The notes beneath the pieces are model-generated. The model searched no databases, had not been told where the DNA came from, and saw only the letters and a program-made list of their open reading frames with translations. From contig CM038924.1 of assembly GCA_021904315.1 (NCBI GenBank), positions 13,690,026-13,754,025 of the forward strand: a stretch of 64,000 bases of DNA, written 5' to 3'. Positions 21,835 through 54,477 of this stretch are shown piece after piece (position 1 is the first letter of the stretch; the number at the start of each line of letters is the position of its first letter). Made by a program: the position numbers and the translations under genes. This DNA comes from Sphagnum magellanicum. Taxonomy: Eukaryota > Streptophyta > Sphagnopsida > Sphagnales > Sphagnaceae.

Positions 21835-24800
21835 TCAGACAGTGATCAGTTCCTTCTCTTCCAAATGTATGACATAGGTCAGTCAGATCACATACAGTAC
21901 AGTGGCTACAACGTGTACACATATGCTTTCTTGTTTTCTTTTTTTCAGGAAGATGAAATTTCTCTTCTTGGATTTTCTTCTCCATTCACATCATTTGCCT
22001 GGGTTACAGTTGTAATTTCATCCCATGTCTAATGAACCTTACCCAATAATCAGGCTACACAGTTTTTTGAGTTCAATTTGATGTTCAGTCTGCGGTTCGG
22101 TTGATGCCATTGAACTCCCATTCATGTCAAAAATTAAGATCTTTCTCTTTCTTTCAGATTCATGATCCTCGCACTTCACATAACACCAACGAAATCTTTT
22201 TTCTAGCTGTTTTCCTTGTGCATGGGTGTCCAATTCAGTACCTGTATTTCACTTTCTCTCATCATTGAACTCAGCAACAAGGCTTTGAAACATTTGAAAC
22301 ATAGCAAGGTGACTTCCTTCAGAAAGTGGACGAACCTGCTTTCCTTCAGGCCTTTGAAAAACAAAATAACCAAATTTGTCAAAAGTCAGTTTATGCAGGG
22401 TGCAGCCTATTGTCGTGACAGCATCCGCAAGAGCAAAGCTTGGCCAAACGTTGAAGCTCTGTTTGAAATAACAAGTCTGATTCCCAAACAAAACCTTCCT
22501 TGCACTAGAAGACCTGAAGCCAGAGGTGATGAATGTGGATGATTGATGGTATCTTGGCATCAACTAGTTGGGAGTTGAACTTGATGGGTATTTTGGGATG
22601 CCAGGGTAGAAATCCTGGACCATATGTATTGATAAGCCATTTGCACACTTCTGACACATAACTGGCACACAAAGGAATAACTTGTAATCAAACACAAATC
22701 TTGCATAATACAACAAGAAACATGCACGTACATGTTTTACAATTAGACTTGCAAAGATCAAGGATGGCAAGACCTATAGGGTTTTATTCAAATGCAGGAT
22801 AGTTTGGAGGTTTAGAAGGACGATTGCATTCTCACAAGCCTAAATCTAGAATCTGGTAATGTAAAATAAAAGCCTTTTAAATTTTACCTATTTATCTTGC
22901 ATCAACATAAACTTTCTTTATAGAATGAGCTAGCTAAAACCATTAATCATCTGGTTAACTTGACAATACGTGTTTCACTTTTGTCATGTGGGAAGCTGCA
23001 ATTGAACCTAGGTCATTACCATCATTTGGGATGCTCCTTAGGCCATCTCTTTACCTAGTTGTGGCACTCATCTCCCCATGGGCCATGACTACCCAATCAC
23101 TTTGGATCCCCTTCATCAAAGTTTTCTCATGCGTCTCAATTGTGGCTTCTCATTATTCTAACAGTAGGGACACTTTTGGTATTATGAAACTCCAATCTCT
23201 AATGTATTGAGTTGATACCAGCCCTTGATGTATTCTTGCCTTGGCTGGTTGCATTTAGAATCCATTGCATTTATCCTACACACAACTAACATTCTTCAAC
23301 AAAAAAACCCCATAATCAACCACTTGCATGATTGCAATGGCTAAGTTTGTTGGGGTATTACTATTGGATTTCATCTTGTTGATTTTGATCATATGGGAAT
23401 GGGGTGGACATTGCCACAACAACATTTGAAGTGTCCGCATGTTCTTTACAAGTCATCCTTTGCTAAATGATTTATGTCAATAATGATGCAAATCCATGAA
23501 AGAAATGGGCAAGCTAGGAGTCTTTGAGACTCAAGTAAAATAAAATCATCCATACCACAAAAACACACATAAGACATCATTTTCACCTACGAATGAAAAA
23601 TGATTAATAAAAGGCAAGCTTACTATGTTACATAATATAACAAGAAAAAAACACAACACATATATGCTCTGCAAGTATGTTTTGAAATATTAATGATGGC
23701 AAGAACTATGGGCTTAACTCAAATATAGGAAAAATTGGAGGTTCAAAAAACATTTTCATTATCACAATCCTGAAACTATAAATTAATAAATAGAAGTCTT
23801 CAAATTTCACCTATTTTTCCTACAACCGAGATCAACTTCTCTAACCTCTTGACACCCAATATTGAATACGATTAAAAAATCATAGTTTTTTTGCTTGTCA
23901 AAGCATTAGCAAGTGCAAAAACCCAGAGCAACAACTTGTCAATGCTCCAATTGGTTCTATAAATTCTTACAAGTCTTTATTGTTGCAAGCACAACACAAA
24001 GAAAAGACAACCACAACAATAGGCAAGAGTTGCACTACTTCAATATCCAATATTTAGGATCACCTTTAGGATCTTATTTAGATATGGGAGGAAACATTTA
24101 GTTCCATTTAATTTTCATTTGCTTGGAAGTTGGCACAAACCTTAGGAGGTTATTGACATGTTGTACCAAACATGATTGTACATATACAACATGTTATTAT
24201 TATTTTGGTACTGCATTGCAACAACTCTTGTTCTCATTCATTTAAGTGATTACTTTTGAAGCTACCAATCAAGTATGTTTTTTCTTATGTTTTTGCATTT
24301 ATCTTCATGATCTACAATCAACATAAACATTTCATAACAACCAAAGGTCCACCAACCAACCAAATATATTGGACAAGAAATCACATAATAAGCATGCCGC
24401 TTAACTACCAAATTAGAGGTTCCATTCCAAGTGACTATCAACACAAGTTGTACCCAAACCATACTTGTTTACAAGCTTTATAAGGTGACAATGGAAGGAT
24501 AACAAAACCCATTTATACATGTAATAGACAGAGAATAGTAATGAGAAATAAATCTAAATTGTAACTATTTGTAGTGAATTAAATATTTTCTCATTTGTCC
24601 ATGGCACTTGTGCACACACATTTGATTATGTACCTACTTGCAATTGATGTGAAGGAATTATAACTTTGACTTGTCCTAGTATGAAAATAAAGAGAAACCC
24701 AACATGTATTTTACCAAAATGCTAAGCCCAACATTACCACATGTATTTCTACTGCTTACCACCTCAACTAGTTCATAGGAAATATTGTTAATTACATCAC

Positions 24801-25218
24801 ACACATAATACAATGACATTGATAGGGTTTTAGTACTCTTATAACTAGTCTTTCCTTTCCTCAAGTCCTGACACACTTTGGGGCCAAGTCTCACTACAAG
24901 TGCTCCCATGCTATTCCTCACACATCTCTCTTCTTTCATGTTCCCTCTTGTTTGACTTGAAATTGATATCACACCCTTATCTAGCACATTGATGATAGTC
25001 TCCACCTCCTACAAAAGTGGTAGCTCCACCCCCTTACCCTCCTAGACAATTCTTCCACTGATTTACCATATCCAACCTTCAAGGGCTAGATTAGTATTTC
25101 TTCTTTTACTCTATGAACTACTTGCAAGTATTTTTCATTCCTTATGTAGCTAGTAAACAACTTCAAATTACCAACATTCATAATTTATTACATAGAATTG
25201 ACCATTTCTAATAAGAAA
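21835..25218. other. Intergenic DNA, no supported gene
   Basis: The first few hundred bases may be the former 3' UTR of the zinc-finger retrocopy. An open frame of 104 residues on the minus strand (22249-22563) and the overlapping plus frame have no recognised domain. The remainder is AT-rich with short open frames only. Confidence 0.45.
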
Positions 25219-26832
25219 TTAGTGCCTTTGTTGTGAACACCAAAGGTTGAGGTTCAAATGTGGGTCACGTTTCATCAATTCCTCCAAAGCGTGTTCCAAA
25301 GCATGTTGACCTCCTTTGCTAGTTACAATTGCCCAAAAGCCATCTGGTACTGAAATAGCAGACATGGAATGGTCATGGTCGTGAAGATCATGGAGATCTC
25401 TTTCATTGTGGCAAGCATCACAAAAATCAAAATCTGAACATACATCACAATGCCAACGTTGTGTCATGATAGGGACACAACCACAACCGTCACATTCGAG
25501 TACCATATACCAACCAATTGTTGGGTTGAACACTTGAAAGTGACAAAGTTTTTTAGATGTTAGATCAATTGACTTTACATTACCCTAATCTATAGACCAA
25601 TAAATTCTATCTTACATGAACATGGATCATGACACACCTAAAAATTTGCTTTGAATTCCATGGCTAACCAACCTCGAGGTCAGAAATTCTGGTATAATGA
25701 AGCTCTTTGATAACTTAAACAATTCCAACATTCCAAGTTGTTTTCAAGAGAGATACTAATGAACAAGAAATTAAAGTAAAATAAATTTCATACATACATC
25801 ACATGTGACCTTATCAAAGTTCTGAATGGGTTTTCATAATTAATCTAGTGAATTCGTTATCCCATGTTAAAAGTAGTCATATCAAGTGCATATGTTCTCT
25901 AGCATTAAGTGGCCAAGAACTTTTGGGAAAATCATTATTAATAAGTGGAAAAAAAAGGAAAAAAGAAAAACATATAAAATTGATTAAATCACACATTAAT
26001 TACATCTGATTTATTATGGTAGAGACAACAAATATTTTGAATAAGGTCCACATATGTGATATGGATCTGTAATAAAAAATCATTGTTGTGGTATTAGGCA
26101 TCTCAAATATTAGATATGGGTCTTACTCCTTTTGCTAGTGTTATGTAAATGTGTTTCAACTAGAGAAAGGAAAATAGGAAAATTGTAAAGCATTACTTAG
26201 GATTGTAGTTGTACGCATCGGAACCCACTTCCATGCATTCCTTAGGATAGATTCTGGATTGTCAACTAACAATGATGAAGTCATTTTTTCTTTTGTTCCT
26301 TGTGACTGCACATCCACATTGGAATCACCCTCAATTGTCCCATTTGCCACCACATGTATCTCCCCAAGCACTGAATACACCACACATATTGCCTCTTGAT
26401 TCACGGTAATAGCCCATCCCTAGTACCTTGATCTTGCATACACACATATCTTGTCACCATGTTTCAAAGCATGCACAGATGGATGTTGCCTTCGCAATGT
26501 GCAAAAATACACTTGGTCATTGTCATCAGCTTCCCGCAATTTGAACAAATGACTAATGAAGACTTCTTCGTTGTTTCTAATAATGCGAGCTTCCATGGAG
26601 CAAAAACCATGTTCGTACCGACCATGGTTCCAATCATAATCAGACCACCCTTGATCATGTGCCACAAAAGAGAAGATGATTGCAATGCATTCTTCTGGCT
26701 TTGTAACAGTGGCTTCCATGCAAATTTCATTGCATCTTTTTTACCAATCACTTTTCTTCCCATGCCATTATTCACAAAGCTCAAGTTGTCATCATAATAG
26801 TTAACCAATTGCAAGGCTGGTTCTTCCTGCAA
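25219..26832 (-). pseudogene. Broken gene with a C-terminal ZZ-type zinc finger
   Basis: Minus-strand pieces lie in order. 26832-26464 opens the reading. 26719-26420 carries DQGWSDYDWNHGRYEHGF and ends at a TAG after YARSRY, but the same frame continues as GWAITVNQEAICVVYS to 26156. 25533-25219 carries a ZZ finger, CDGCGCVPIMTQRWHCDVC, then FCDACH and a His-rich end (HDHDHSM). ZZ fingers bind two zinc ions and mediate protein contacts; this one resembles the ZZ of plant BIG-type proteins. The HDQGWSDY block looks like a conserved but uncharacterised module. The frame change near 26720 and the in-frame stop argue for a pseudogene; introns could explain part of it. Confidence 0.55.
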
Positions 26833-29264: not shown

Positions 29265-29530
29265 AGAATTGGTGAGAAACAAAAACGTCAAGACTCAGTG
29301 AGAAACAAAATCTCAAAAATTATCAGTGAGAAAACTCTCAAGAATCAGTAAGAAATGCTAAAAATTTCCTCAAGAACCAGTGAGAGTTCCTCAAGAATAT
29401 CAGTGACAAAACCCTCAAAAATCAGTGAGAAATGATCAAAACTCCTCAAGAATATATCAGTGAGAAGTGCTAAAAACCCTCAAAAACCAGTGAGAGATGC
29501 TAAAAGATCCTCAAGAATCCGTGAGGAATG
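29265..29530. repeat. Minisatellite inside the invertase pseudogene
   Basis: About nine imperfect copies of a ~30-base unit of the form 'ctcaagaatcagtgagaaatgctaaaa' occupy the interval where the missing central invertase exons should be. It is probably linked to the deletion of those exons. Confidence 0.75.
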
Positions 29531-30451
29531 CTCAGGCATAACATCGAGATACTACACAATTCAGGACGTTTCACTATCGGATTCTGCTTCACTTTGACCC
29601 ACTTCCTGAGAAGAGGATCCTCGGGGTCAGCCGGCACCGCCATGTTTTGCGTCTGCTCATTGCAGTGACCAGTCTCATTAGATCCCCCTGTCACACAACA
29701 ACTAAATATATTCAGTCTCAAAATCTCTCCCATCTCACGCAAACACAATAAGATCACTTTAGTAGTTGACATCTCGCAAGGATCTGGTGGGATTTGCGTG
29801 TGTGATACAACAGAATTTGCTACGATTGCAAAGAACTCAAGCAGAGAAGAAGAAGCCCCCCAGGTGGTGGGCTCAAACAGAGTTGTGCAGGAATCTGTGA
29901 CCAATCCATAGAATATTTTCTTGAAGGGAAACGAAGGGTGGGTGTCCACTGTCATAGAGAAACATGTTGCTACTACTGCATATGCCGCTCCTCCAGAGTC
30001 CTTACCTGCGTAGAGAATGAAGGGGACGTCATCCGGGCCATTGGTAGCTGAGCCTGACCATACTCCCATGTCGTCATACCACTGATCAGGCTCCAAACCA
30101 TTTTCCAAGTACAGCCAGTGCATCAGAGCTGTGGAGACAGCATGACCCCAAGCGATGTGGCCCCACACTGCTGCATCAGGATTGTACTGGTAGAACAAAT
30201 GGTAGTATCCCTTGTAGTACATGGGAGCTGCAAACAGAAAAAAAACACACAGAAACTCGGTCACTTCACTGGAGAAAATTCCTCAAAACAGCTGTTCGCT
30301 GCTGCTGCAACGATACTTTTATGTTCGAACAAGGTTCTTCCACTGATGGGTCTCTTCTAGATTTTGAAGGAAGAATTGCAACTGAATCTCTGAAGAAAAT
30401 TCAAAACAAAGAAACCCAAGAAAATTCTTCCAGAGAAATAGGGTTGCTTAC

Positions 30452-31370: not shown

Positions 31371-32879
31371 TCACAATGTACAACCTATCATGAGTGAACA
31401 CATAATATGTCTCAACTCCAAACAAATTTCAAGAAATGAAGGCCGTGTGGCAGGGTCAGGATGATAACATTCTTGGATCAATTTGGAGAGTTGGTGAGGA
31501 CATTCTTCAGGTAAATTTGGACGCAATCCATCCTTTATCTTCGTTCGGAGTTCCGTCATTGAACTCTGATTGTGAAAAGGGATATTTCCAGTCAAAATTT
31601 CATAACAAACCATCCCGAAGCTGTAGACGTCGACTTTGAAGGGATATCTCCTGGATATTTGTTCATTTGACGAACTTGGATGTTGGGTCTCTTGACAAAC
31701 CTGGATTGGAACACTTTGATCAAAATTGCCAAATAATTCTGGTGCCATCCATTGAGTTGTCCCCTGATCCATGGTTAGGTTGGAATATGTGCAACTTGAT
31801 TCTTTTGTTTTGGAGAGCCCAAAATCAGCCACTTTTGCATACACATGCCCATCATGTTCATCGCACTTCACAAGAATGTTCGTCGATTTCAAATCTCGAT
31901 GAACCACCTTCTTTTGATGTAAGTAATGCATGCCTTCCGCTACTTGCAACATGATGTCAATTGCTTCAAGAAGCTTGAATGGGGCACCCTGGATTTCATG
32001 GTTGTCCAATCTTTTGCGAATCAGTCCATAAAGATCCCCATCCATAAGTTCCGTAACAAGGGAACACAAATTAGCCGTAGTAACAAAACAAAACAAGGGC
32101 AATATATTTGGGTGAGACAATCCTGCAAGAAGAGATGCTTCTTTTTGGAAATGTTCGCCCTCTAGTCCAAAAAACCTTTTCTCTGCAAAATGTTTTCCAA
32201 GCCACTCAACTTTGTGCACACTTGCAGATGCCCCCTTTCCTATTTGACCATGTGGCACTCTTTGAATACTTTTGTGTGCCACCTTCCATGCATCAATCTT
32301 TCCAGGATGATTTAATCTTTTGATGAGATTCTCCGAATCAATTGACCCAACCTCCATCAATTTGGATAGTAACCATTGTTGATCTTCCAATGCTTTCTCA
32401 TCAATGATGGGAAATTCTTCATCCTTGACATCATCACTCCACTTTCGATCTTGTAGTTTAATCAAAAACTCCTTTGTTGCTCCTTCCTTGAAAATGCTTT
32501 GGAAAAGTTGCATGTATAACCTTAATTTAAAAATCAAGGATGTAAAATGCTCTTTTGCATTTGCCAACATCATGGCCACTCGAATCCATTGGGCATCACA
32601 ACAATCACCAACAAGTATCTCACCTTCCTTCCATGTTTGTGCAAGACTCTCCAAAATACAACAAGATCGTTGAATGTCTTGTGGAGATAAACCATTAATG
32701 CATGCCTTTGCATCATTCAAAGACTCACGGAGCTTGTGAAATAAGTAACCACATTGAAGCCAGTTGATTAGTACTGAATCGGAACTCTGTGCTGAAATCA
32801 TGTTTTCAACGTTCTTCAAAGATTTTGTTCCAAGCTCAAAGGATGAAGATGGTACATCCACGTTTGATACATTTGGCTC
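31371..32879 (-). CDS. Exon 7: helical region and intact TKL-like kinase
   Basis: Begins at an acceptor with EPNVSNVDVPSSS; the open frame's apparent start is a GTG, so no ATG heads it. Residues ~1-210 are helix-rich (ESLNDAKACINGL, AKEHFTSLIFKLRLYMQL). The kinase follows: glycine loop IGKGASASVHKVEW, candidate ATP lysine in HFAEKRFF, C-helix Glu in FQKEASLL, VVHRDLKSTN, ADFGLSK, GTTQWMAPE and a C-lobe Arg in PATRPSF. All catalytic residues are present, consistent with an active Ser/Thr kinase of the TKL group. Ends SLMIGCTL and stop at 31371; 503 codons including the stop. Confidence 0.9.
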   Translation of the reverse strand, partial: EPNVSNVDVPSSSFELGTKSLKNVENMISAQSSDSVLINWLQCGYLFHKLRESLNDAKACINGLSPQDIQRSCCILESLAQTWKEGEILVGDCCDAQWIRVAMMLANAKEHFTSLIFKLRLYMQLFQSIFKEGATKEFLIKLQDRKWSDDVKDEEFPIIDEKALEDQQWLLSKLMEVGSIDSENLIKRLNHPGKIDAWKVAHKSIQRVPHGQIGKGASASVHKVEWLGKHFAEKRFFGLEGEHFQKEASLLAGLSHPNILPLFCFVTTANLCSLVTELMDGDLYGLIRKRLDNHEIQGAPFKLLEAIDIMLQVAEGMHYLHQKKVVHRDLKSTNILVKCDEHDGHVYAKVADFGLSKTKESSCTYSNLTMDQGTTQWMAPELFGNFDQSVPIQVCQETQHPSSSNEQISRRYPFKVDVYSFGMVCYEILTGNIPFHNQSSMTELRTKIKDGLRPNLPEECPHQLSKLIQECYHPDPATRPSFLEICLELRHIMCSLMIGCTL

Positions 32880-35800
32880 CTACAAACAATCACATAACTA
32901 GTCATTGGTACATGCATTTGCCTAAAAATCTAACCAACATGCATCCAACTCTATAAGATTTGCTAGAATTGAAGAACAAAGTTGATCGATGCAAGATTCT
33001 AGAAAGAACAATTCTAGAATCTTGCATCAACTTTAATGTTTCTTCAAATTGTTCATGAATATCACAAAGTTTTAAAATCTTGTTACATCTCCATTAATTG
33101 TTTGGCAATATATATTCATATGCATCTAGTAGAATCCAACAACAATGATGATAAATTTTTTTTGATGGAATTTGTTGGTATACAAGGTTGTTTGTTAGCA
33201 CATATGGCTACAACTGTCCTAAATACCTCCGGGAGCATTTCCAACTTAGGATTGTCATCCATTTGGAGTCTTTGGAGTTGGAGGAAATGAAAACTTTGAG
33301 GAAGAGTTTGCAAGTTTTTGCACCCGTAAAGATGCAACTCAACCAGGTTTTGAAGGTGCCCAAAATCCTCTGGAAGTGTTTGCACTCCAATATGCCCCAT
33401 GTGCAACAACTTCAACTTCACAAGCCCACTCATGGAGGGCAATTCTTGGATCTTCTCACACTTGTGGAGATGCAAGTCTTCCAAGTTGGACAATTGTGAA
33501 AATGAATGTGGTAGTCTTGACAAGGAAGTTGCATCAGCCCAAAATTCATCCAATCTTTGAAGTTTCCCAAATTCTGATGGCAAAAATTCCAATTTGGTGC
33601 AATTAACCAACCATAATTTCTCGAGTTTCGACAAGAGACAAATGGTATCAGGTAACCTCTCCAAAGTTGTGCAGTTTGATAAGTTCAATTGCGTAAGTTC
33701 CACTAATTCGCCCACAGAATCAGGTAAGGCCTTCAATGTTGAGCACCCTTGCACATCCAAATTCTTCAATCTTGATAGTTTCCCGATAGTTTGAGGAAGC
33801 TCTTCAAGAGCAGTACAATGCTTGAGTATCAACATTCGCAACTCCTTACAAGGAAACTGTAATCCAACATTTTAAAAACATGAAATTTTGATTAAGATTT
33901 TGATTTAAAAAGGGGTTCACTCCATGACAAACCCCATCTACTAATATCATGTATCCTTTTTTGGAATTAAAACCAAGAAAATTACTCACTTTTGAAAAAA
34001 TTAATGTTGAGTAAAATAATACAACAAAAACGAAAATTGGACAACAAAATCCTAGATAACCAAATAAGCTATTGAATTGTTTCAACCATTTTGGATGTAC
34101 AACATGAAAATAGAGGTAGGTCCTTACCTTGTCATTGGAGGAAAAGTGTTACGCCTTCTTCTTTACTATATATAACATATGAACAAGTTCCCATGACTAA
34201 CATCCAAATAAAAGAAAAACCAATTGAAGGAGAGTTTGCAAAACTAATATCTTAAGGTGTGCACTCATATGTTGAACAATTTCTAGCAATCAAAATCTGT
34301 GTTAACTAAGTTCAACAGTTGTGCATCTACTGGTTATGAAGATCTATGATTCTTAGTGCATCATTCCACCTATTTGTAGGGTTTGTACCTCATCATTGGA
34401 ATTCTTGGGAGAAATTCGAGTCACACTCTTGCTGCCAGTGAGGTCCAACACTGATAAATTGAGAGGTAGCTCTGACAAGGGCAAAGACAAAATTGAGTTG
34501 TTGCCAATATGAAGGTCAACAAGTGATTTAAGTCTTCCAAATCCTTCCGGGAGCATTTCCAACTTGGGATTGTCATTCATTTGGAGTCTTTGGAGTTGGA
34601 GGGAACCAAAACTTTGAGGAAGAGTTTGCAAGTTTTTGCACCCGTAAAGATGCAACTCAACAAGGTTTTGAAGGTGCTCAAAATCCTTTGGAAGTGTTTG
34701 CACTCCAATATGCCCCATGTGGAACAACTTCAACTTCACAAGCCCACTCATGGAGGGCAATTTTTGGATCTGCTCACATTTGTGGAGATGCAAGTCTTCC
34801 AAGTTGGACAATTGTGAAAATGAATGTGGTAGTCTTGACAAGGAAGTTGCATCAGCCCAAAATTCATCCAATCTTTGAAGTTTCCCAAATTCTGATGGCA
34901 AAAATTCCAATTCGGTGCAATTAACCAACCGTAATTTCTCGAGTTTCGACAAAAGACAAATGGTGTCAGGTAACCTCTCCAAAGTTGTGCAGTTTGATAA
35001 GTTCAATTGCGTAAGTTCCACTAATTCGCCCACAGAATCAGGTAAGGCCTTCAATGTTGAGCACCCTTGCACATCCAAATTCTTCAATCTCGATAGTTTC
35101 CCGATAGTTTGAGGAAGCTTTTCAAGAGCAGTACAATCCTTGAGTATCAACATTCGCAACTCCTTAAGTCTTCCAAATCCTTCCGGGAGCATTTCCAACT
35201 TAGGATTATCATTCATTTGGAGTCTTTGGAGTTGGAGGAAACCAAAACTTTGAGGAAGAGTTTGCAAGTTTTTGCACCCGTAAAGATGCAAGTCAACAAG
35301 GTTTTGAAGGTGCCCAAAATCCTCTGGAAGTGTTTGCACTCCAATATGCCCCAACTTCAACTTCACAAGCCCACTCATGGAGGGCAATTCTTGGATCTTC
35401 TCACACTTGTGGAGATGCAAGTCATCCAAGCTGGACAATTGTGAAAATGAATGTGGTAGTCTTGACAAGGAACAACCTATCATGAGTGAACACATAATAT
35501 GTCTCAACTCCAAACAAATTTCAAAAAATGAAGGCCGTGTGGCAGGGTCAGGATGATAACATTCTTGGATCAATTTGGAGAGTTGGTGAGGACATTCTTT
35601 AGGTAAATTTGGCCGCAATCCATCCTTTATCTTCGTTCGGAGTTCCGTCATTGGACGATCGTGAAAAGGGATATTTCCAGTCAAAATTTCATAACAAACC
35701 ATCCCGAAGCTATAGATGTCGACTTTGAAGGGATATCTCTTGGATATTTGTTCATTTGACAAACTTGGATGTTGGGTCTCTTGACAAACCTGGATTGGAA

Positions 35801-38800
35801 CACTTTGATCAAAATTGCCAAATAATTCTGGTGCCATCCATCGAGTTGTCCCCTGATCCATGGTTAGGTTGGAATATGTGCAACTTGATTCTTTTGTTTT
35901 GGAGAGCCCAAAACCAGCCACTTTTGCATACACATGCCCATCATGTTCATTGCACTTCACAAGAATGTTCATCGATTTCAAACCTCGATGAACCACCTTC
36001 TTTTGATGTAAGTAATGCATGCCTTCCGCTACTTGCAACATGATGTCAATTGCTTCAAGAAGCTTGAATGGGGCATCCTGGATTTCATGGTTGTCCAATC
36101 TTTTGCGAATCAGTCCATAAAGATCCCCATCCATAAGTTCCGTAACAAGGGAACACGAATTAGCCGTAGTAACAAAACAAAACAAGGGCAATATATTTGG
36201 GTGAGACAATCCTGCAAGAAGAGATGCTTCTTTTTGGAAATGTTTGCGCTCTGGTCCAAAAAAACATTTCTCTGCAAAATGTTTTCCAAGCCACTCAACT
36301 TTGTGCACACTTGCAGACGCCCCCTTTCCTATTTGACCATGTGGACTCTTTGAATACTTTTGTGTGCCACCTTCCATGCATCAATCTTTCCAGGATGATT
36401 TAATCTTTTGATGAGATTCTCCGAATCAATTGACCCAACCTCCATCAATTTGGATAGTAACCATTGTTGATCTTCCAATGCTTTCTCATCAATGATGGGA
36501 AATTCTTCATCCTTGACATCATCACTCCACTTTCGATCTTGTAGTTTAATCAAAAACTCCTTTGTTGCTCCTTCCTTGAAAATGCTTTGGAAAAGTTGCA
36601 TGTATAACCTTAATTTAAAAATCAAGGATGTAAAATGCTCTTTTGCATTTGCCAACATCATGGCCATTCGAATCCATTGGGCATCACAACAATCACCAAC
36701 AAGTATCTCACCTTCCTTCCATGTTTGTGCAAGACTCTCCAAAATACAACAGGATCGTTGAATGTCTTGTGGAGATAAACCATCAATGCATGCCTTTGCA
36801 TCATTCAAAGACTCACGGAGCTTGTGAAATAAGTAACCACATTGAAGCCGGTTGATTAGTACTGAATCGGAACTCTGTGCTGAAATCATGTTTTCAACGT
36901 TCTTCAAAGATTTTGTTCCAAGCTCAAAGGATGAAGATGGTACATCCACGTTTGATACATTTGGCTCCTACAAACAATCACATAACTAGTCATTGGTACA
37001 TGCATTTGCCTAAAAATCTAACCAACATGCATCCAACTCTATAAGATTTGCTAGAATTGAAGAACAAAGTTGATCGATGCAAGATTCTAGAAAGAACAAT
37101 TCTAGAATCTTGCATCAACTTTAATGTTTCTTCAAATTGTTCATGAATATCACAAAGTTTTAAAATCTTGTTACATCTCCATTAATTGTTTGGCAATATA
37201 TATTCATATGCATCTAGTAGAATCCAACAACAATGATGATAAATTTTTTTTGATGGAACTTGTTGGTATACAAGGTTGTTTGTTAGCACATATGGCTACA
37301 ACTGTCCTAATTACCTTCGAGAGCATTTCCAACTTAGGATTGTCATTCATTTGGAGTCTTTGGAGTTGGAGGAAACCAAAACTTTGAGGAAGAGTTTGCA
37401 AATTTTTGCACCCGTAAAGATGCAACTCAACCAGGTTTTGAAGGTGCCCAAAATCCTCTGGAAGTGTTTGCACTCCAATATGCCCCATGTGCAACAACTT
37501 CAACTTCACAAGCCCACTCATGGAGGGCAATTCTTGGATCTTCTCACACTTGTGGAGATGCAAGTCTTCCAAGTTGGACAATTGTGAAAATGAATGTGGT
37601 AGTCTTGACAAGGAAGTTGCATCAGCCCAAAATTCATCCAATCTTTGAAGTTTCCCAAATTCTGATGGCAAAAATTCCAATTCGGTGCAATTAATCAACC
37701 ATAATTTCTCGAGTTTCGACAAGAGACAAATGGTGTCAGGTAACCTCTCCAAAGTTGTGCAGTTTGATAAGTTCAATTGCGTAAGTTCCACTAATTCACC
37801 CACAGAATCAGGTAAGGCCCTCAATGTTGCGCACCCTTGCACATCCAAATTCTTCAATCTTGATAGTTTCCCGATAGTTTGAGGAAGCTCTTCAAGAGCA
37901 GTACAATCCTTGAGTATTAACATTCGCAACTCCTTACAAGGAAACTGTAATCCAACATTTTAAAAACATGAAATTTTGATTAAGATTTTGATTTAAAAAG
38001 GGGTTCACTCCATGACAAACCCCATCTACTAATATCATGTATCCTTTTTTGGAATTAAAACCAAGAAAATTACTCACTTTTGAAAAAATTAATGTTGAGT
38101 AAAATAATACAACAAAAACGAAAATTGGACAACAAAATCCTAGATAACCAAATAAGCTATTGAATTGTTTCAACCATTTTGGATGTACAACATGAAAATA
38201 GAGGTAGGTCCTTACCTTGTCATTGGAGGAAAAGTGTTACGCCTTCATCTTTACTATATATAACATATGAACAAGTTCCCATGACTAACATCCAAATAAA
38301 AGAAAAACCAATTGAAGGAGAGTTTGCAAAACTAATATCTTAAGGTGTGCACTCATATGTTGAACAATTTCTAGCAATCAAAATCTGTGTTAACTAAGTT
38401 CAACAGTTGTGCATCTACTGGTTATGAAGATCTATGATTCTTAGTGCATCATTCCACCTATTTGTAGGGTTTGTACCTCATCATTGGAATTCTTGGGAGA
38501 AATTCGAGTCACACTCTTGCTGCCAGTGAGGTCCAACACTGATAAATTGTGAAGGCTTAGCGTTGGAGGTAGCTCTGACAAGGGCAGAGACCACCATTGC
38601 AGCCATCTCAATTCTTTAGACCAAGTAGAAAAGTCGCCCTTGACTTGACAATGATCCAATATGAGAAAGTGGAGTTCAGTCATTCTGGTATATGTTTCAG
38701 CTTTCCAAGCTGCACCATCTTTTGCTCCTGCTACTGAAAGTCCTCGGACTGTATCTGTTCCCTACAAAAGCCACAAAATCTCACAATTCAATTTTGCAAT

Positions 38801-41800
38801 ACTTCATGAATGTTACACCTAACGTTTGGAGTTTCATGCAAGCAAGGTATATAAGTTGAATATGATATGGGTACTTGGGAATTATTTGATTCTATGCATG
38901 ATGCACATGAAGATCATGTGGTAGGGTTGAGATTATAGAGACCAACAATTTGCAAAATGACATCTCTTGCATGTCAATTCATCTATATGTTAGTGTAGAA
39001 TTTTTTTTGTGCTAGTAGTTCAAATAGAGGTTTTCCCCATGCCGTCCAAACTAAATTTACACATATCATCATGTTGATGTCTCAAGCCAACTAGGCAATC
39101 TGTTAAAAATGAAAAATGCAATTAATTAGTAACAATGTTTCAAGCACCATCACTAGTAAGCATCACTTTGAATGAGTGGCTGCCACAATGGAATATCACT
39201 CTCAACTAGTAGCTGTTTAATAAGAAAGAACATAGCTTTCAAATTAGTGACTGCCACTAAATAGCATTACTTTCAATTAATTCCAGGAATTAGTTGTGAA
39301 TCATGATATTGAGTCTCAACCTCTTACTTGTAGCAATACTCTTAATTAACTGTGAGGATTAGTTGTGATATTGAGTCCCGGCTTCTTAAATCATGGTCCT
39401 TATAGTGTGAGAACCTCTCTCAACGCATAGCATGCATGGGTGTATTCCTTTTCAGCATAGATGTGAAGAAAGCCTTTCTGCAAACTCTCACACATGTTTG
39501 CTTGTTTTGTTTGTTATTTTGTTGCCTTTCTACACTTACAACCTCTCTTGCAAGTAAGTTTTCTACAGGTTGTGACCCCTCTTGCATGTAGATCGTTGCA
39601 CAAGTTATATCCTCTCTTGCATTGTCACCTAAAACTATTGAGACGGCATCTCATGAGCACCTTAAACCAGATTATGCGATCAGTTGAGTGTATATTTGTA
39701 CCTGGTTCTTTCGCAACACTCGTTCAGCCATGGCAAGATCCCACAAGTGACTTCGTTGCCCTTCAATCTGTGACTGCTTGGTGACCACATTCCGTCCCAT
39801 GTCACAGAGAAGATCATGCATTCTTATTCGTCTATCGCTGTCCAACGTTACTAAAGACTTGTCCATAAGTGCATGAAATGACACTTGTGGTCCCGTGTAG
39901 GAGATGCATGATTCAAATATCTGCATTGCCATTTGCTCATCCTTGCCAATCAAGAAGCATGCTATGTCTGTGAACATCAGCCTAGATTCATCTGACGAAA
40001 GACCATCATAGCTAATCTTGAGCTTGTTTAAAATGTCTCCATTTGCACGCAATGTTTCAGTTGCTTGATGCCAGCAGTCTCTATCCTCTGGTCTTTTCTT
40101 GTCGAACAAGAATGCTCCAATAACTTCCAATGCTAATGGAAGGCGACAACAAGCATCTGCAACTTTCCTTGCAAGATCTTGGAAACCATCACTGGCCTTC
40201 TCATTGTAGAATGCGTGCCAATTGAATAGTCGATGAGAGTCATGGGGACTCATCAGCTCCACTTCATGCATTGCAGTCAAATGTCCATCTCCTCTCATGA
40301 TGTTAGTCAAAACATTTTGATCCCGTGACGTAACCAAAATTCGGCTCCCTCGAGCAAGTTTGTCAATGTCAGGTATAAGAACATCGAATTGCCTCCGATG
40401 ATCAATGTCATCGACAACAATGAGCACTTTTCGACCCATGAAGCGATCAAAACAGTAAGAAAACTCCTCTGAACTTTGTAAATCCTCTTGTAGCAGATCA
40501 TTCACGAGTTGCTTTTGTGAATCCAGGTCAGTGATACTCCTTACATCTTTTAGAAAGCTTTGCTGCTCAAATCTCTTCTCCATTGCAAAATGGTTGTATA
40601 CCTCCCTCGCAAGTGTCGTTTTTCCAATCCCACCCATTCCAAACACACCTATAACCCCAACACTGTTCCCCATTAGGTTTAATTTCTTAATCACGCCCTT
40701 CGATGACTCCTCTAACCCCACTCGGTGTGGTGGAACTTGCTGCAATCGACGAGCAGGCAAGGCACGTTGAACTGCAAGTACAATTCTTCTCTTGAGTTGG
40801 GCTTCATCACTGCACGTAGCCACATGCCAACTATTAGCACACAACTATATTTCAAAGCCAAGAACCATCTAAATAAACTCATTTTGGTATCAAAACAAGA
40901 TGAGGTAAACTTACATTTGGAATATACAAAAAAATATTAAGGTCATGTTGCAAACTTATCCAAGGTTTATTACATTTACAAAAATGGTTATTTTTGTGTT
41001 ATTATTATTATCATTAAATATTAATTAATATAGTCAATAGTTTATACAAAAAATGACATAATAAAAAACTGAATAATAATACTATGATTATTAATTCAAT
41101 AATAATGATGATAATAGTTATTTATTTGAATTATTATTAAAGCGTAATAATTGATTTCAATTATAATTCTTTATATGTTAATAGTATGTTTTATAATAAT
41201 AATTATTAGCTTAAAAATAATTAGAGTAATCAGGATCATAATAGTTAATAGATTACCATTTATTAATTAATATTTTTAAAATAGTTAAGTTAAATATTTT
41301 TAATAATTTAATAATTAATGATAATTCAACTAATTGGTTGATTATACAATTATGTAATAAAAATCTATTGATGATTTTTATTAGTTAATTAACTAGGTTT
41401 TTAAATTAATTAATTATTTTAAGGTTAAGTACAAATTGTTTAATGGATAGCCTCAGATTGTGGACAATCTAGAGAAGGTATCAATAGCTACATGAGGACA
41501 TCAAGTGTCAAAGGCCTCACCCATTAAACTCGGCAAGTCGAAACCCTTGGAGGTCAGCAACTTTTGCCAAAGCAGTTTCCCATCTCTCCACATCTTGATG
41601 GCGCCCTCGCTTCTTATGTTTGCGGAGACCTGCTGCAAATGGTCCATCGTAGGGTCGACAAAGATGTTCAACTTCGACGCCATAGAAAACAGGAAGAATG
41701 AGCTTCCCACTTTCCAACATGTCATGTAGCTCTTCAAGACAGTACTTGGATTCGGCGTAACCCTTGGAGAATATTGCCACATGCACACCGACCCCAGAAA

Positions 41801-42059
41801 GTGCCTCGTTGATTGAGTTGTAAGCGTGTTTCCCCTTGATGAGCGACTTGGCATCCAAGAAAGGATGGAAGCCAGCGGCGCAGAGTGCATCATTGAGGTC
41901 AGCGACGAACGTGTCTTTTACATCAGGTCCTCGATGGTTCAAGAAGACATCATACTTTCCCAGTGATTGGATATCATATGAAACAGTCGGAGGCAGAGGC
42001 CGCACATCCTCCGGCACCGGACTGACTTGAACTTCAGGGGCCACTGAAGGTGCATCCAT
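31371..42059 (-). CDS. TIR-NB-ARC-LRR receptor with tandem kinase modules (seven-exon model)
   Basis: Exons in transcription order: 42059-41521, 40809-39702, 38761-38477, 37932-37315, 36967-34389, 33844-33227, 32879-31371. All borders are GT-AG; the first junction is phase 2, the others phase 0. Counting one missing base in exon 5, the sum is 7257 nt, about 2418 residues: TIR, NB-ARC, LRR, helical region, kinase, LRR, helical region, kinase. TIR-NLRs detect pathogen effectors; the TIR cleaves NAD+ and the NB-ARC is an ATP/ADP switch. A C-terminal kinase could act as integrated decoy or signal output (inference). As sequenced, the 1-nt deletion near 36344 would end translation at 36329, giving a ~1062-residue TIR-NB-LRR-helical protein. 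Alternatives: separate NLR and kinase genes, or a decaying locus. Transcript evidence is not available here. Confidence 0.75.
32988..33028. repeat. Intron hairpin, 17-bp perfect stem (also at 37076-37116)
   Basis: gatgcaagattctagaa (32988-33004) and its exact complement (33012-33028) flank a 7-base loop, within the intron before exon 7. The duplicated intron carries the same hairpin at 37076-37116. It may be a tiny MITE or a chance palindrome. Confidence 0.7.
33227..33844 (-). CDS. Exon 6: LRR block (duplicate of exon 4)
   Basis: Opens ELRMLILKHCTALEELPQ after ttgtaag and ends EMLPE at GAG|GTATTT, phase 0, 618 nt. Only scattered differences from exon 4. Flanking introns are also duplicated and almost unchanged, showing that the whole exon-intron block was copied. 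Confidence 0.85.
34389..36967 (-). CDS. Exon 5: helical region, degenerate kinase and LRRs (frameshifted)
   Basis: Acceptor ttgtag then GAGCCAAATG gives EPNVSNVDVPSSS in frame with exon 4. A ~205-residue helix-rich region without a recognised family precedes a TKL-like kinase (IGKGASASVHKVEW, WMAPELF). In this copy the catalytic loop reads VVHRGLKSMN and the DFG reads GFG, so both key Asp are Gly: a pseudokinase. The kinase end (CSLMIGC) runs straight into LRRs beginning SLSRLPHSF, and two LRR sets follow to NSNDE|GTACAA. One base is missing near 36344 relative to copy 2 (tgg-act against tggcact), which creates a stop at 36329; an ATG at 36377 opens the other frame. Confidence 0.85.
37315..37932 (-). 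CDS. Exon 4: LRR block
   Basis: Acceptor ttgtaag opens ELRMLILKDCTALEELPQ, followed by LRRs of ~24 residues of the L-x-x-L-x-L-x-x-C-x-x-L-x-x-LP-x-x-x-G type. It ends EMLSK at AAG|GTAATT, phase 0; 618 nt. Nearly identical to exon 6 (33844-33227) at an offset of 4088. The readthrough tail ending STRCI is intron sequence, not protein. Confidence 0.88.
38477..38761 (-). CDS. Exon 3: NB-ARC/LRR linker and first LRRs
   Basis: Acceptor ttgtag opens GTDTVRGLSVAG, the standard TNL linker after the MHD exon. It is followed by AWKAETYTRMTELHFLIL, LRWLQWW and LSVLDLTGSKSVTRI. 285 nt, phase 0 at both ends, ending NSNDE at GAG|GTACAA. There is no start codon at its head, as expected for an internal exon. 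Its 3' part and following intron are duplicated at 34389-34490 and downstream. Confidence 0.85.
39702..40809 (-). CDS. Exon 2: NB-ARC domain (TNL type)
   Basis: Acceptor gtgcag then TGATGAAGCC restores the frame as G-D-E-A. Motifs in order: P-loop GMGGIGKTT, kinase-2 KVLIVVDDIDH, RNBS-B GSRILVTSRDQNVL, a GLPLA-equivalent CRLPLALEVIG, RNBS-D ACFLIGKDEQ, and MHD as RIRMHDLLCDMGRNVV. The final Asp of kinase-2 and the MHD are typical of TIR-class NLRs. All nucleotide-binding motifs are intact. Ends ...AERVLRKNQ at a CAG|GTACAA donor, phase 0. The preceding intron (41520-40810) contains a long AT-rich tract. Confidence 0.93.
41521..42059 (-). CDS. Exon 1: TIR domain
   Basis: Starts at an ATG (MDAPSVAPEVQ) and after a ~35-residue Pro-rich leader shows the TIR boxes: KYDVFLNHRGPDVKDTF (near residues 35-51), FLDAKSLIKG, VAIFSKGYAESKYCLEELHD and LPVFYGVE. 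The Glu of the CLEEL segment corresponds to the catalytic Glu of NADase-competent plant TIRs, so activity is possible. The exon ends ...RLAEFNG at a GG|GTGAGG donor, phase 2. This is the usual place for the first intron of plant TNL genes. Confidence 0.93.
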
Positions 42060-49152: not shown

Positions 49153-49950
49153 TGTCGCAACCCCACTTTGGCCAAGTGTGGGGGTGAAGCCCAACACTTG
49201 GAAAAGTTGAAGGTTAGGAGTCTTCCAGGACTCTCGAATGTTCAGAGCTCCACAGCAAGGGGCAAAACACCTTGCATTGGGGTGTTCTTGGTGTCATTGC
49301 AAAAGGTCTTGAAACGTAGATATCGAAAATGCCCTCGCATTGGCAATTCAGATATCTGCAGCCCAAGTTATGGGCAAAAGAAGGGCCGAGAGTCAAATTG
49401 GCAGTTTGACTCCCGACCACTAAAAGTCGGGAATCGACCTCTTTTCGACATTCGATTTGAGCGTGCAACATGGCGTTGAAAAGATTTCGACGAGGGCTAC
49501 AACTTTGCTTTAGACTTCGTTGCGATCGGAGGTCAGAGCGAGAAGATATGACCTCCCAAAGTCCCAAGACTCCAACTTGGGAGTCCCGGGAATTTGTGCC
49601 ATTTGGATGTAGCCTCGGTGGCGAGCTGCAAAGAATACTATATGGGGGAAGGTGGTGGCTTCCCCCGAGTCCGGGCCGTGGTGAGTCTTGTGTGTCCAAG
49701 TGCCCGTGGCAAGTCCCAACACCAAAGGGTGTCCCGAATGCTAAACTAACCCAATTTGGTTGGTTTTGGATGCAGATTCACACAAGCTAAGTTAGTCCCT
49801 CTTCCTAGTCTAATCCCGGGGCTCCCAACTCGACCCTTTACCCCTTTCTAGAGTTCGGAGTCGGGAGCGTGCTACCAAGTCTCAACTTTCCGCAACTTGA
49901 CTTTGTGAAACCCTCAAGTGGGTTTCACCCCGTGACTTGGGAGCGCGTCA
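49153..49950 (+). mobile_element. 5' LTR of the chromovirus
   Basis: Begins TGTCGCAACCCC and ends GGGAGCGCGTCA (TG...CA). 798 bp. It contains a short inverted motif (tggcagtttgactcccgacc region near 49400). It lacks a ~45-bp segment present in the 3' LTR. Confidence 0.93.
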
Positions 49951-49952
49951 CG

Positions 49953-49964
49953 TGGTATCAGAGC
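49953..49964 (+). promoter_or_regulatory. Primer binding site, tRNA-Met type
   Basis: TGGTATCAGAGC lies two bases after the 5' LTR. It is the standard sequence complementary to the 3' end of initiator tRNA-Met used by most plant Ty3 elements to prime minus-strand synthesis. Confidence 0.92.
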
Positions 49965-49993
49965 AAGTGGTGAAGCTCACTTCTTGGGTTGGA

Positions 49994-51550
49994 ATGGCTC
50001 CCAAGAAGAACCGCAAACAACCGCAAGACTCCGTGTTGGAGAAGCCCGTCGAAAACCAAGTAGCCCCGCTCGAATCTATTGGGGAGGAGGAACCCATGCC
50101 CCAGGAAGACCGTGATGAGCCCGAAAGTGAGGAGGAACAAAGGAGCTCGGTCCTATTCACCCCGGAGCAATTGGAAGTGCTCCTCAAGATGGGAAGGCCC
50201 GACTTTGGTGAGTTGGTGGCAGCCCTCAAAATGGGAGCTGCCAAGGGTGAAAGGTTTCAACCGGCCAAGCCCGGGAACTTCGATGGTGCCCGAGACCACA
50301 AAGTTGTGGATGCCTGGCTTGCGGAGATGGAGGATTATATACATGCCGCCAAGGTTAGCCAGCATTCTGCCGTGGAGCTTGCCCAATCTTACTTGAAAGG
50401 CTATGCCGCTACATGGTGGCGGACGGTGAGGCAAGACGAGGGCAAGAACCATGGCTATACGTGGGAGTTCTTCAAGGATCGCATTGAGGCGGAATTCATC
50501 CCGAGGAACTCCGACTACATTTCTAGGTGCAAACTCCGTGACCTTGTGAATGCCACAAATGAAAACTTGAGGCAATATGTGAGGGCTTATTCCGAACTCA
50601 TGTTGGAGGTTCGACACATGCACGAGATGGACCGTGTGTGCCAATTTGTGATGGGGCTTCCAACTTGGGCGAAGCGAAAGCTTGAGGAGAGTTGGCCCGC
50701 CTCATTGTCCGAGGCCATCACGAAAGTGGAGAACTTTTCGGATGTGGGGTGGAGTGACAAATCCGAATTCAAAAAGGACAACAAGTTCCTTCAAAAGAAA
50801 CCAAGGCATGAGGGGGAATGGAACCGGGGGCAAGGTAGCCCAACCAAGGATAAGCCCAAAACATTTCAAGGCTCGGGGTTCAAACCTAAAGGAAGTTTCG
50901 TGAAGAAGGGGGTTCCTTCAAAAGGGAGCCAACTCAAGGGAGATTTTGGAGCAAAGCCCAAGGGGGCATGCTTCAATTGCAATGAAGTGGGGCATTACTC
51001 CAAAGATTGCCCCAAGTCCAAATCGGGTGTTGGGAGCTCCAAGGTACTTGCTCTCAATGCCACTTTAGCCCAAAAGGAATGCAACCGACTTATCTTCTTG
51101 AAAGGGAAGATTTCTAAGCGGGAAATTTTATGTCTTTTGGACAAAGGGGCTTCTCACAACTTCATAACTCGAGAAAGCGCCCAAAGGATGGAGCTCCATT
51201 TGGAGGAGCTCAAGGCACCCATCGAGGTGCACTTCGCGGATGGGGTTCCCCATCCAACTACTTTACAAGCAAAGGGAGTGCCACTCCAACTGGGGAATTG
51301 GAGAGGAAAGGTGGACTTGTTAGTTTCCACCTTGGGTGGAATGGATTGTGTTTTGGGAATGGAGTTCATCACCCAAAACAATGTGCTCATAGAAGGGCAC
51401 AATAGATTAGTAAGGATCCCATCTAAAAGTGGGATTGTTAAGGTGAAGGCACATGAGTTGCTTTGTGTGGGTGGGCCAACCATCCACTTCATGGTGGGAA
51501 AAGCTTGGGAAAAGCTTGGGAAAGAGAATGTGTGGGAGGTTTTGGCATGA
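49994..51550 (+). pseudogene. gag-protease ORF of the chromovirus
   Basis: Starts at the first ATG after the PBS (MAPKKNRKQ). It contains a Retrotrans_gag domain (FDGARDHKVVDAWLAEMED ... WWRTVRQ, residues ~95-260), a basic linker, a CCHC zinc knuckle CFNCNEVGHYSKDCP (~residue 343) and an aspartic protease. The protease signature reads LLDKGASHNF where family members have DTG or DSG, so the active-site triad is changed (ACA to AAA). It ends at a TGA at 51548 because an 11-bp tandem duplication (aaaagcttggg twice, ~51504-51525) throws it out of frame with pol. Confidence 0.9.
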
Positions 51551-52887
51551 TGTGTGTCATGCGGGTGTTGGATGAGTATGAGCCCAAGGAAGCCACCAAG
51601 TTGGTGACTTCCGCCAAGTGCATAAGGCGAGTTTTGGAAGAGTTCCCGGATGTGATGCCCGAAGACTTGCCCGAAGACTTGCCCCCGAGAAGACGTGTTG
51701 ATCATGCGATTGAAGTGATGCCGGGAGTGGAACCTCCCGCCAAGGCCCCATACCGAATGAGCCATGAGGAGTTGAAAGAGTTAAATGTTCAACTCGAAGA
51801 ACTCCTCGCCAAAGGTTACATCAAACCAAGTAAGTCACCATATGGGGCACCCGTTTTTTTTGTTCACAAGAAGGATGGGACTTTGAGGATGTGTGTTGAT
51901 TATAGAGCACTCAACAAGGCAACGGTGAAAAATCGGTATCCTTTACCTCGTATCGATGATCTATTTGATCGTCTCTCGAGAGCCAAGGTTTTTAGTAGAA
52001 TTGATTTACGTTCGGGGTATTACCAAATAAGGATCAAAGAAGGGGACGAAGAACAGACCGCTTGTCGCACAAGGTATGGGTCATATGAGTTCTTGGTGAT
52101 GCCCTTTGGGCTCACCAATGCACCCGCAACATTTTGCACTCTCATGAATGACATTTTCCGAGAATGGCTTGATGATTTTGTGGTCGTCTACATAGATGAC
52201 ATTTTGATTTATAGTAGCTCCATGGAGGAGCATGCGGAGCACCTTCGCAAGGTGTTCCAAAAGCTACGAGAAAACAAGTTGTATGCCAAGCTTGAAAAGT
52301 GCGAATTTAGGGTGACGGAAGTGGACTTCCTTGGGCATAGGATAACTCGAGAAGGTTTGATGATGGACGATCATAAGGTCAAGGCAATTTTGGATTGGGA
52401 GCCGCCTAAGTCGGTTCCCGCCTTGAGATTTTTTTTGGGATTGGCCTCCTACTATCGCAAGTTCATCAAGAACTTTGCAAAGATAGCGGCCCCTTTGACA
52501 AACCTCTTGAAGAAGTCCGCCGTCACCTATGATTGGGATGAAGCATGCGACGAAGCCTTTGAAGCATTGAAGGGCATTTTGGTGAAGGCGCCGGTGTTGA
52601 AGTTGCCCGACTTTGACAAGGACTTTGAAATCCATTCCGACGCCTCCGACTTTGCAATTGGGGGTGTTATAGTGCAAAAGGGAAGATCGGTGGCCTTTGA
52701 AAGCAAGAAGTTGAGTGAGACGAAGAGAAGGTGGCCAACACATGAGAAGGAAATGTGGGCGGTCATACATTGTCTCAAGACTTGGGGCCACTACATAGGA
52801 TCCAAAGATGTGGTGGTGTGGACCGACAATGTGACCTTGAAGTACTTCGCGACTCAACCCAAGTTGTCATCAAAACAACAAAGGTGA
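51463..52887 (+). pseudogene. Reverse transcriptase and RNase H part of pol
   Basis: Typical Ty3 [48 protein letters not shown] and the catalytic YIDD in [13 protein letters not shown]. RNase H follows with [13 protein letters not shown] and WTDN. The frame stops at a TGA (52885) in SSKQQR, where relatives have Trp; the same frame resumes at once. The open frame overlaps the gag-protease ORF by ~90 bases, but the true coding part probably begins after 51525. Confidence 0.92.
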
Positions 52888-54477
52888 CAAGACACATTGG
52901 CCTTGTTCAATGTGGACATTCGGCACAAGCCGGGAAAGGAAAACATAGTCCCGGATGCCTTAAGCCGAAAACACCAACTTAGAGTGGTGTATGTGGGAGA
53001 GTCGGAACTTCAAAAGGAAGTAAGGTTAGCAAACTGCTGGGATGCTTTTGCCAAAGAGACGAGGCAAAGCATCCAAAATGGAGCCAAGTCCCACTTCCAT
53101 TTGAGAAATGGATTGTTGTGGTATAAGCAAAATAGACTCTATGTGCCGGAAGGGAAAATTAGGGACACACTTTTGAAGGAATGTCATGATGGACTGCTTG
53201 TGGGCCATGGTGGTGCAAAGCGCACCACAACATTCCTAAAGAAGTCCTACTATTGGCCCAACTTGAAGCTTGATGCGGAAGAGTATGTGAAGACTTGTTT
53301 AACTTGTCAACAAAACCGGACCCTCAACAAGAAGCAAGCGGGTTTGTTGCAACCTTTGCCAATTCCTCAAGGGCCATGGGAAAGTGTGTCAATGGACTTC
53401 ATGGTAAGTTTGCCCCCTTCAAAAGGGTTTGATGCCATCATGGTTGTGGTGGATCGCTTTAGCAAGATGGCACATTTCATTCCCACAAAAGATGAAGCCA
53501 CGGCCCAAGAAACGGGAAGGTTGTTCTTCTCCCACATTTTCAAGCATCATGGTCTTCCCAAAGACATAGTGTCGGATCGAGACCCGAAGTTTACAAGTAA
53601 GTTTTGGCGGGCCTTGTGGAAGCGAATGGGGTCGAAACTCAAGATGAGCACTTCGTTCCGCCCCCAAATAGATGGCCAAATCGAAAGGGTCAACTTGGTG
53701 ATCCAACAATTCCTAAGGAATTATGTGGCGGCGGATCAACAAGATTGGGTGGACCATTTGGAGTTAGCCGAGTTTTGTTATAATAACTCGGCACATTCCG
53801 CAACCGGGTCCACCCCATTTCAAATGGTGACGGGCAAGTCACCAATTGTGCCCATGACTTGGGCATCACAAGGACAAACTCCAAGTGATGCAAGTGAGGA
53901 AGTGCCAATGGTCACACAACTTGATGAAGAGAGGCGGCACCTTTGGGAGTTGGCAAAAACCAACTTGGAGAAGGCGCACAAAAGGTACAAGGATTTTGCG
54001 GACAAGTCCCGACGAGAGGTGAAATTCCAAGTGGGAGATGAGGTGTGGTTGAACATCAAGAACTTCCGGTTGCCAAAAGGTTTAAGTCATAAGTTTTTGG
54101 GCCCATATGCGGGTCCATTCAAAGTGTTGGAAAAGAAACTTTCCGACACTTATAAGTTAGAACTACCGGAAAATCTTAGAGTTCATCCCACATTTCATGT
54201 TTCTTTCTTGAAGCCGGTCGCCCGTGATGCCTCAAGGCCTAATCGAGAGCACACCTCAAGGCCTCCACCGGACTTGGTTCATAATGAACCAGAGTTTGAG
54301 GTAGAGGCCGTGCTCAAATCAAGACAACTTAGAGGACGAGAGCGGGAATACTTAGTCAAGTGGAAGGGATACCATGCAATAGAGGCTTCTTGGGTGAATG
54401 AATCCGACATGGAACATGCCCAAGAAGCCATAGAAGAATTCCACACAAGATTGGCAAAGAAAAAACGTAGAGCGTGA
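52888..54477 (+). pseudogene. RNase H end, integrase and chromodomain part of pol
   Basis: Same frame as the RT. Contains HKPGKENIVPDALSRK, an HHCC zinc-binding N-terminus (CHDGLLVGHGG ... CLTCQQNR), the integrase catalytic core with Asp in SMDFMVSLPPS, Asp in SDRDPKFTS and Glu in GQIERVN, a GPY-like module (KFLGPYAGPFKVLEK), then HPTFHVSFLKP and a chromodomain (VLKSRQLRGREREYLVKWKG). Chromodomains direct integration to marked chromatin in this clade. The residues needed for catalysis are present; the defect is the upstream stop. Confidence 0.93.

Follow-up and report, generated by a model that had tools for sequence, protein, structure and literature searches.

A Sphagnum TIR-NLR gene with an MLKL-like HeLo, brace and kinase unit as its last exon

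The stretch of DNA analysed here (the window) comprises 64,000 nucleotides of Sphagnum magellanicum (GenBank assembly GCA_021904315.1, contig CM038924.1, positions 13,690,026 to 13,754,025) and is free of N. Its minus strand carries, between positions 31371 and 42059, seven exons of an immune receptor of the TIR-NB-ARC-leucine-rich repeat (LRR) type (TNL), followed by a C-terminal kinase. Exon 1 (41521..42059) contains the start codon and the TIR domain (Pfam TIR, 9.4e-24), including the motif SKGYAESKYCLEEL, which we take to represent the TIR catalytic glutamate. This exon is 97% identical to the matched proteins P0001, P0002 and P0121, with a shared donor. Exon 2 (39702..40809) encodes the NB-ARC domain and a ROQ1-type winged helix (Pfam, 3e-30 and 7e-13), and is 85–95% identical to nine annotated TNLs. 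The P-loop, kinase-2, RLPLAL and MHD motifs were all found in it. Exon 3 (38477..38761) covers the linker between NB-ARC and LRR and the first LRR, and ends in phase 0. Exon 4 (37315..37944; Pfam LRR_14, 8e-24) and exon 6 (33227..33856) are LRR blocks belonging to copy 1 and copy 2, respectively, of a tandem duplication, and the acceptor of exon 4 agrees with P0001 and P0002. Between them lies exon 5 (34389..36967), a chimeric and damaged exon, while exon 7 (31371..32879; Pfam kinase, 2e-47) encodes the complete tail, consisting of a HeLo bundle, a brace, the kinase and the stop codon. The TIR, NB-ARC and LRR parts stand in this order in a single reading frame, making the receptor a TNL, and the extra, non-canonical domain makes it a nucleotide-binding LRR receptor (NLR) with an integrated domain (NLR-ID).

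A preliminary description of this DNA had recognized the receptor and its C-terminal kinase, an assignment borne out by the matches to TIR, NB-ARC, winged helix, LRR and kinase, and by the gene models P0001, P0002 and P0004. It had also correctly placed the start of the kinase exon at an acceptor (a TAG directly precedes 32879), in phase 0 with the LRR exon and with no ATG at its head: the first in-frame methionine is residue 27, inside helix 1 (residues 9–29), and the acceptor's own TAG closes the frame of exon 7. The acceptor proposed at 33844 is possible, in that P0130 aligns from there, but P0001, P0002 and P0004 align from 33856 and from its twin, 37944. GT-AG borders were indeed present on all seven exons; however, the matching phases claimed for a join from the TIR ATG to the kinase stop did not hold. 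The full join is interrupted by 60 stops, beginning at codon 1067, which rules out a seven-exon read-through. The exons fail to join because exon 5 is frameshifted, a defect tied to the tandem duplication. Neither the duplication nor the damaged first kinase appears in the preliminary description.

The duplication spans 4.09 kb, with copy 1 at 35465..38552 and copy 2 at 31373..34464, both on the minus strand and 98.38% identical over 3092 alignment columns (38552–35465 against 34464–31373). Between the two copies, one intron differs at a single base in 532 and the other at 2 in 347. Exon 5 contains copy 1 of the helical domain and of the kinase, and, compared with its twin, lacks one nucleotide at 36345, which produces a stop that ends at 36329. 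In the first kinase (35466–36341), HRG and GFG replace HRD and DFG. Exon 5 then continues in the same frame into LRR until 34389, and the stop codon of the first kinase is therefore lost. Upstream of the frameshift the copies differ by 3 nonsynonymous and 1 synonymous changes; the main kinase piece shows 16 nonsynonymous and 2 synonymous differences, and the end piece 4 nonsynonymous and 2 synonymous ones. The aspartate losses are private to copy 1: site 352 is Asp in all five homologues of the tail (see below), and site 329 in four of the five, P0002 having His. Exon 7 itself deviates at seven sites where copy 1 matches all five. A cryptic acceptor before “TATTC” near 36352 was considered as a rescue for exon 5 and rejected; it is in phase, but a pyrimidine tract was absent by eye. 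Exon 5 can be skipped, since its borders are phase 0, and the joins without it are open: exons 1-2-3-4-7 and 1-2-3-6-7 each give 1356 residues, and exons 1-2-3-4-6-7 give 1566.

Exon 7 divides into a HeLo four-helix bundle (residues 9–128), a brace (134–190) and a kinase (206–497). An AlphaFold model of the exon gave an end-to-end structural alignment with AtMLKL3. In the VIA list for the whole exon, AtMLKL3 was in row 10 among the 50 listed, tied with kinase rows; it was the sole row reaching residue 11, while 8s93 (BTK) reached residue 101 and the others started at residue 181 or beyond. For the helical part alone, AtMLKL2 ranked first. (AtMLKL2 was absent among the 50 rows listed for the whole exon, and AtMLKL3 among those listed for the helical part.) An iterated profile that included DUF1221 relatives detected AtMLKL2 with 25.1 bits, against 10.1; the bridging relatives P0086 (2.7e-6) and P0103 (precomputed) match PF06760 (DUF1221). 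The predicted fold and the profile link thus place a HeLo four-helix bundle and brace ahead of a kinase fold, as in plant MLKLs. Judged by these bridged profiles and the predicted fold, the exon 7 tail is homologous to the plant MLKLs, and we are confident in the identity of the receptor and tail parts as assigned.

The catalytic residues K234, D329 and D352 of the exon 7 kinase are intact. The lysine and the HRD and DFG aspartates are likewise retained in P0001, P0003, P0004 and P0005, while P0002 has HRH. In a survey of 239 sequences, in which fragments were scored as not intact, all three residues were present in 88 of the 102 kinase domains that follow a helical domain. The AtMLKLs are described as pseudokinases (PMC10951266), which exon 7 is not; we therefore call the tail MLKL-like rather than an MLKL of the AtMLKL type.

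A search with the exon 7 part of the joined protein drew 7987 candidates, 5754 of which matched at E ≤ 0.001. Among the best 120 of these matches, which were listed, none was identical to the window protein, and five were 87–95% identical over exon 7. Three of the five have TIR, NB-ARC and LRR ahead of the tail: P0001 of S. compactum (1641 aa), and P0002 (1488 aa) and P0004 (1834 aa) of S. troendelagicum. The TIR, NB-ARC and tail of these homologues are 92–97% identical to those of the window. When the proteins were aligned to the window by tblastn (rows of at least 55% identity, the best 25 at most per protein), the alignment ends and starts agreed at 41520, 40808, 39702, 38761 and 37944, with the tail at 32864 or 32852. 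The domain order is seen in the DNA and is repeated in the gene models of two Sphagnum species. P0005 has an AP2 head; that of P0003 resembles LRR repeats by eye, and PF27087 is listed for this protein, although a scan of its head gave no domain match. In P0309 of S. magellanicum (307 aa) and in P0241 (579 aa), the LRR runs into the helical part; the source of P0241 may be a transcript or a copy that lacks introns.

The corresponding search with the TIR-NB-ARC part matched 2080 proteins among 7968 candidates. Among the best 120, which were listed, nine Sphagnum proteins were 85–96% identical. Three of these nine nearest heads carry the full helical-kinase tail, five have no kinase, and one (P0122) carries part of another kinase. 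In P0122, from S. jensenii, this piece lies at about residues 900–1212, with a stretch ahead of it that looks helical by eye and a second NB-ARC-LRR behind it, an arrangement that may reflect either another capture event or a faulty gene model. The C-terminus of P0125 has a ZZ finger match slightly below the Pfam cut-off.

The helical-kinase unit also occurs in other company. It is a tail behind a weakly matched α/β-hydrolase head in P0007, behind a legume lectin in P0049 and, in the moss Ceratodon, behind TIR-TIR (P0055), phytochrome domains (P0041) and WRKY (P0063), while it precedes an HSP70 match in P0028 and NB-ARC or NB-ARC-LRR in Ceratodon P0057, P0065 and P0082. Related Sphagnum proteins have other heads or none, such as P0244 (535 aa). 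In an IQ-TREE tree of kinase domains from 40 hand-picked rows, four TNL tails form a single clade (99/94) that lies among Sphagnum AP2, LRR-like and hydrolase tails (100/99, 99/95). AtMLKL2 and AtMLKL3 group with fern, clubmoss and Sphagnum kinases, including those with DUF1221 (97/92), and this group in turn clusters with the Sphagnum tails (98/94). A separate clade (100/100) contains the TIR-TIR tail of Ceratodon and the NB-ARC heads, which suggests that TIR or NB-ARC parts joined the helical-kinase module at least twice. The long branches of P0122, P0114, P0091 and P0071 were placed unsurely.

Elsewhere on the minus strand, a second member of this TNL family has left a decayed tail (24557–26829), which matches the C-termini of P0124, P0125, P0127 and P0130. 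It has an in-frame stop near 26420 and an open reading frame (ORF) with a ZZ finger at 25219–25584 (Pfam, 1.8e-9); in tblastn it had no neighbouring TIR or NB-ARC head. Between this tail and the TNL-kinase gene is a GH32 (invertase-type) exon (29500–30282, minus strand), and by eye the invertase-like sequence seems to extend to about 28.0 kb. The window also contains a DDE_1 transposase fragment (2469–2843, minus strand), a CCCH zinc-finger ORF (19577–20353, plus strand), with adjacent ORFs perhaps extending to 21834, and ORFs of the Ty3/gypsy type (49901–54477, plus strand) encoding gag, protease, reverse transcriptase, RNase H and an integrase with a chromodomain.

We lean towards reading this locus as a Sphagnum TIR-NLR gene in which a sensor is fused to its own executor, the complete MLKL-like unit of the last exon; that the tail acts as an executor, a role predicted from its parts, we consider an even chance. 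The cell would splice round the broken exon 5 to give a protein of 1356 or 1566 residues. Binding of an effector would make the receptor oligomerize and so gather several tails, whose kinases may then phosphorylate each other in trans, freeing the HeLo bundle to attack membranes.

Several results weigh against this reading. PF06760 matched neither exon 7 nor copy 1 at E ≤ 1 in Pfam. A narrow profile missed AtMLKL2 (6.7 bits, with 7.6 for the best of 2000 shuffles); it also left P0104 and P0107 unlisted. Profile A1 gave six matches in the PDB at E ≤ 10, none of them an MLKL, and the N-terminus of AtMLKL3 gave no alignment with P0086. With the helical part alone, none of 274 Foldseek matches reached E ≤ 0.001, and the Foldseek match to 4btf had a root-mean-square deviation of 18.8 across both parts. 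In the tree, the branch of AtMLKL2 and AtMLKL3 is long. The TNL-tail homologues P0001, P0002 and P0004 are gene predictions, not transcripts, and the nearest TNL heads are not uniformly tailed, with three of nine complete and one more bearing a kinase piece. Finally, PMC11850516, the review that reports EDS1 as absent, also denies mosses canonical NLRs, in conflict with PMC11218826.

The main rival to the executor is an integrated decoy. The tail would then be bait, a copy of a moss MLKL-like kinase targeted by pathogen effectors; alterations to it would set off the receptor, with signalling through the receptor's own TIR. The recurrent loss of catalytic aspartates (two in copy 1, and HRH in P0002) fits this too, kinases are reported as the commonest NLR-IDs, at either end of the receptor (PMC4759884), and related proteins put other tails on the same TNL heads, including the weak ZZ finger match of P0125. 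However, a whole HeLo, brace and kinase unit has been retained, with all three catalytic residues intact in exon 7, P0001 and P0004, and proteins outside the NLRs (AP2, hydrolase-like, WRKY and phytochrome) end in a similar unit. We regard a decoy as possible, but not probable.

We also think it unlikely that the locus is merely part of a decaying NLR cluster, broken by the duplication, with no functional fusion made here although intact ones exist elsewhere. The frameshift and catalytic losses in exon 5 point that way, as do the 16 nonsynonymous to 2 synonymous differences in the larger kinase piece (4 to 2 in the end piece), the seven sites at which exon 7 alone lacks the residue shared by copy 1 and the five homologues, and, at 26829–24557 nearby, a decayed TNL tail; yet the TIR, NB-ARC and LRR exons and exon 7 are open, with their motifs present, and the broken exon is skippable through its phase-0 borders. 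That exon 7 is a separate kinase gene behind an ordinary TNL gene is very improbable, and we rejected it. Helical-kinase proteins of Sphagnum that have a different head, or no head at all, do exist, but the N-terminal part of one of these, P0244, has no convincing match in the window (best E 0.11); moreover, the frame of exon 7 is closed by its acceptor, its first methionine falls inside helix 1, three gene models attach the tail to a TNL, and P0309 and P0241 pass from LRR to the helical part.

If the sensor-executor reading is right, a TNL carrying its own HeLo-kinase would bypass the relay through EDS1 and helper NLRs. In Arabidopsis, MLKLs are reported to be required for resistance through TNLs but not through CNLs (PMC9950082), and the fusion gene is a natural hint that TNLs and MLKLs cooperate. 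EDS1 and PAD4 are stated to be absent from mosses (PMC11850516), and the fusion offers a possible answer to how moss TIR-NLRs signal there. A broader proposal, which we advance tentatively, is that mosses use an interchangeable HeLo-kinase cartridge, a still-active ancestor or sister of the seed-plant MLKLs; on a TIR-NLR it would make a one-piece sensor and executioner, bypassing EDS1 and helper NLRs, and the same cartridge would account for the kinases found in moss Pkn-NLRs and in the Ceratodon phytochrome hybrid. TNL resistosomes are tetramers, and the AtMLKL2 and AtMLKL3 structures are likewise given as tetramers (PDB 6lba, 6ka4), so that an executor with four-fold symmetry could fit on a receptor of the same symmetry. 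The kinase of a moss kinase-NLR can bring a HeLo-type bundle with it. NLRtracker is described as calling MLKLs via PF06760 (PMC8559963) and may miss such bundles, since this family was unmatched in all three Ceratodon kinase-NB-ARC proteins scanned.

Among known systems, the plant MLKLs (AtMLKL2 and AtMLKL3; PDB 6lba, 6ka4) share the HeLo bundle, brace and kinase fold with the Sphagnum tail and are its neighbours in the kinase tree; however, the Arabidopsis proteins are stand-alone pseudokinases, whereas the tail is fused behind a TIR-NLR and has intact catalytic motifs and no Pfam DUF1221 match. Pm13 of wheat, described as an MLKL_NTD-kinase fusion that acts in disease resistance, also combines a HeLo-type domain with a kinase that has its catalytic residues, in that case of the RLK/Pelle-DLSV group, but is presented without TIR, NB-ARC or LRR (PMC10951266). 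In the Ceratodon phytochrome-kinase hybrid (PMC4525182), which P0041 probably represents, judging by its domains, the helical-kinase module is a C-terminal tail as well, but the head is a photoreceptor. (The name “light-sensor protein kinase” on the Physcomitrium homologues P0024 and P0047 may derive from this hybrid.) The preliminary description had contrasted the gene with moss kinase-NLRs, in which the kinase is N-terminal. The position is indeed opposite, and with its module at the C-terminus and the kinase in the last exon the Sphagnum gene is not a Pkn-NLR; but Ceratodon P0057, P0065 and P0082, which fit the published description of Pkn-NLRs (PMC11218826), bear the same module. NLR integrated domains are reported there to be expanded in Sphagnum. 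The architecture had also been called unusual, and the helical region unassigned. Kinases fused to either end of an NLR are known (PMC4759884, PMC5067614; Rpg5, AtWRKY19/At4g12020), from mosses onward (PMC4759884), so that it is the helical region that stands out, although it can be assigned, matching the HeLo and brace of plant MLKLs in predicted fold and bridged profiles; the accessible portions of these two sources do not report a HeLo or brace beside the kinase. Fungal NLRs that carry a HeLo or MLKL-like domain likewise unite a HeLo-type death domain and an NLR in one chain, but the domain is N-terminal, and a HeLo-kinase tail behind a TIR-NLR is not named in the excerpts available (PMC10952240, PMC9815663). 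Our literature search found no text joining an MLKL-like unit to a plant TIR-NLR or a moss NLR, though supplementary tables may list TNL-kinases of S. fallax or S. magellanicum. C-terminal NLR kinases and fungal HeLo-NLRs are already known; the unusual part of the present gene is the MLKL-like unit on a plant TIR-NLR.
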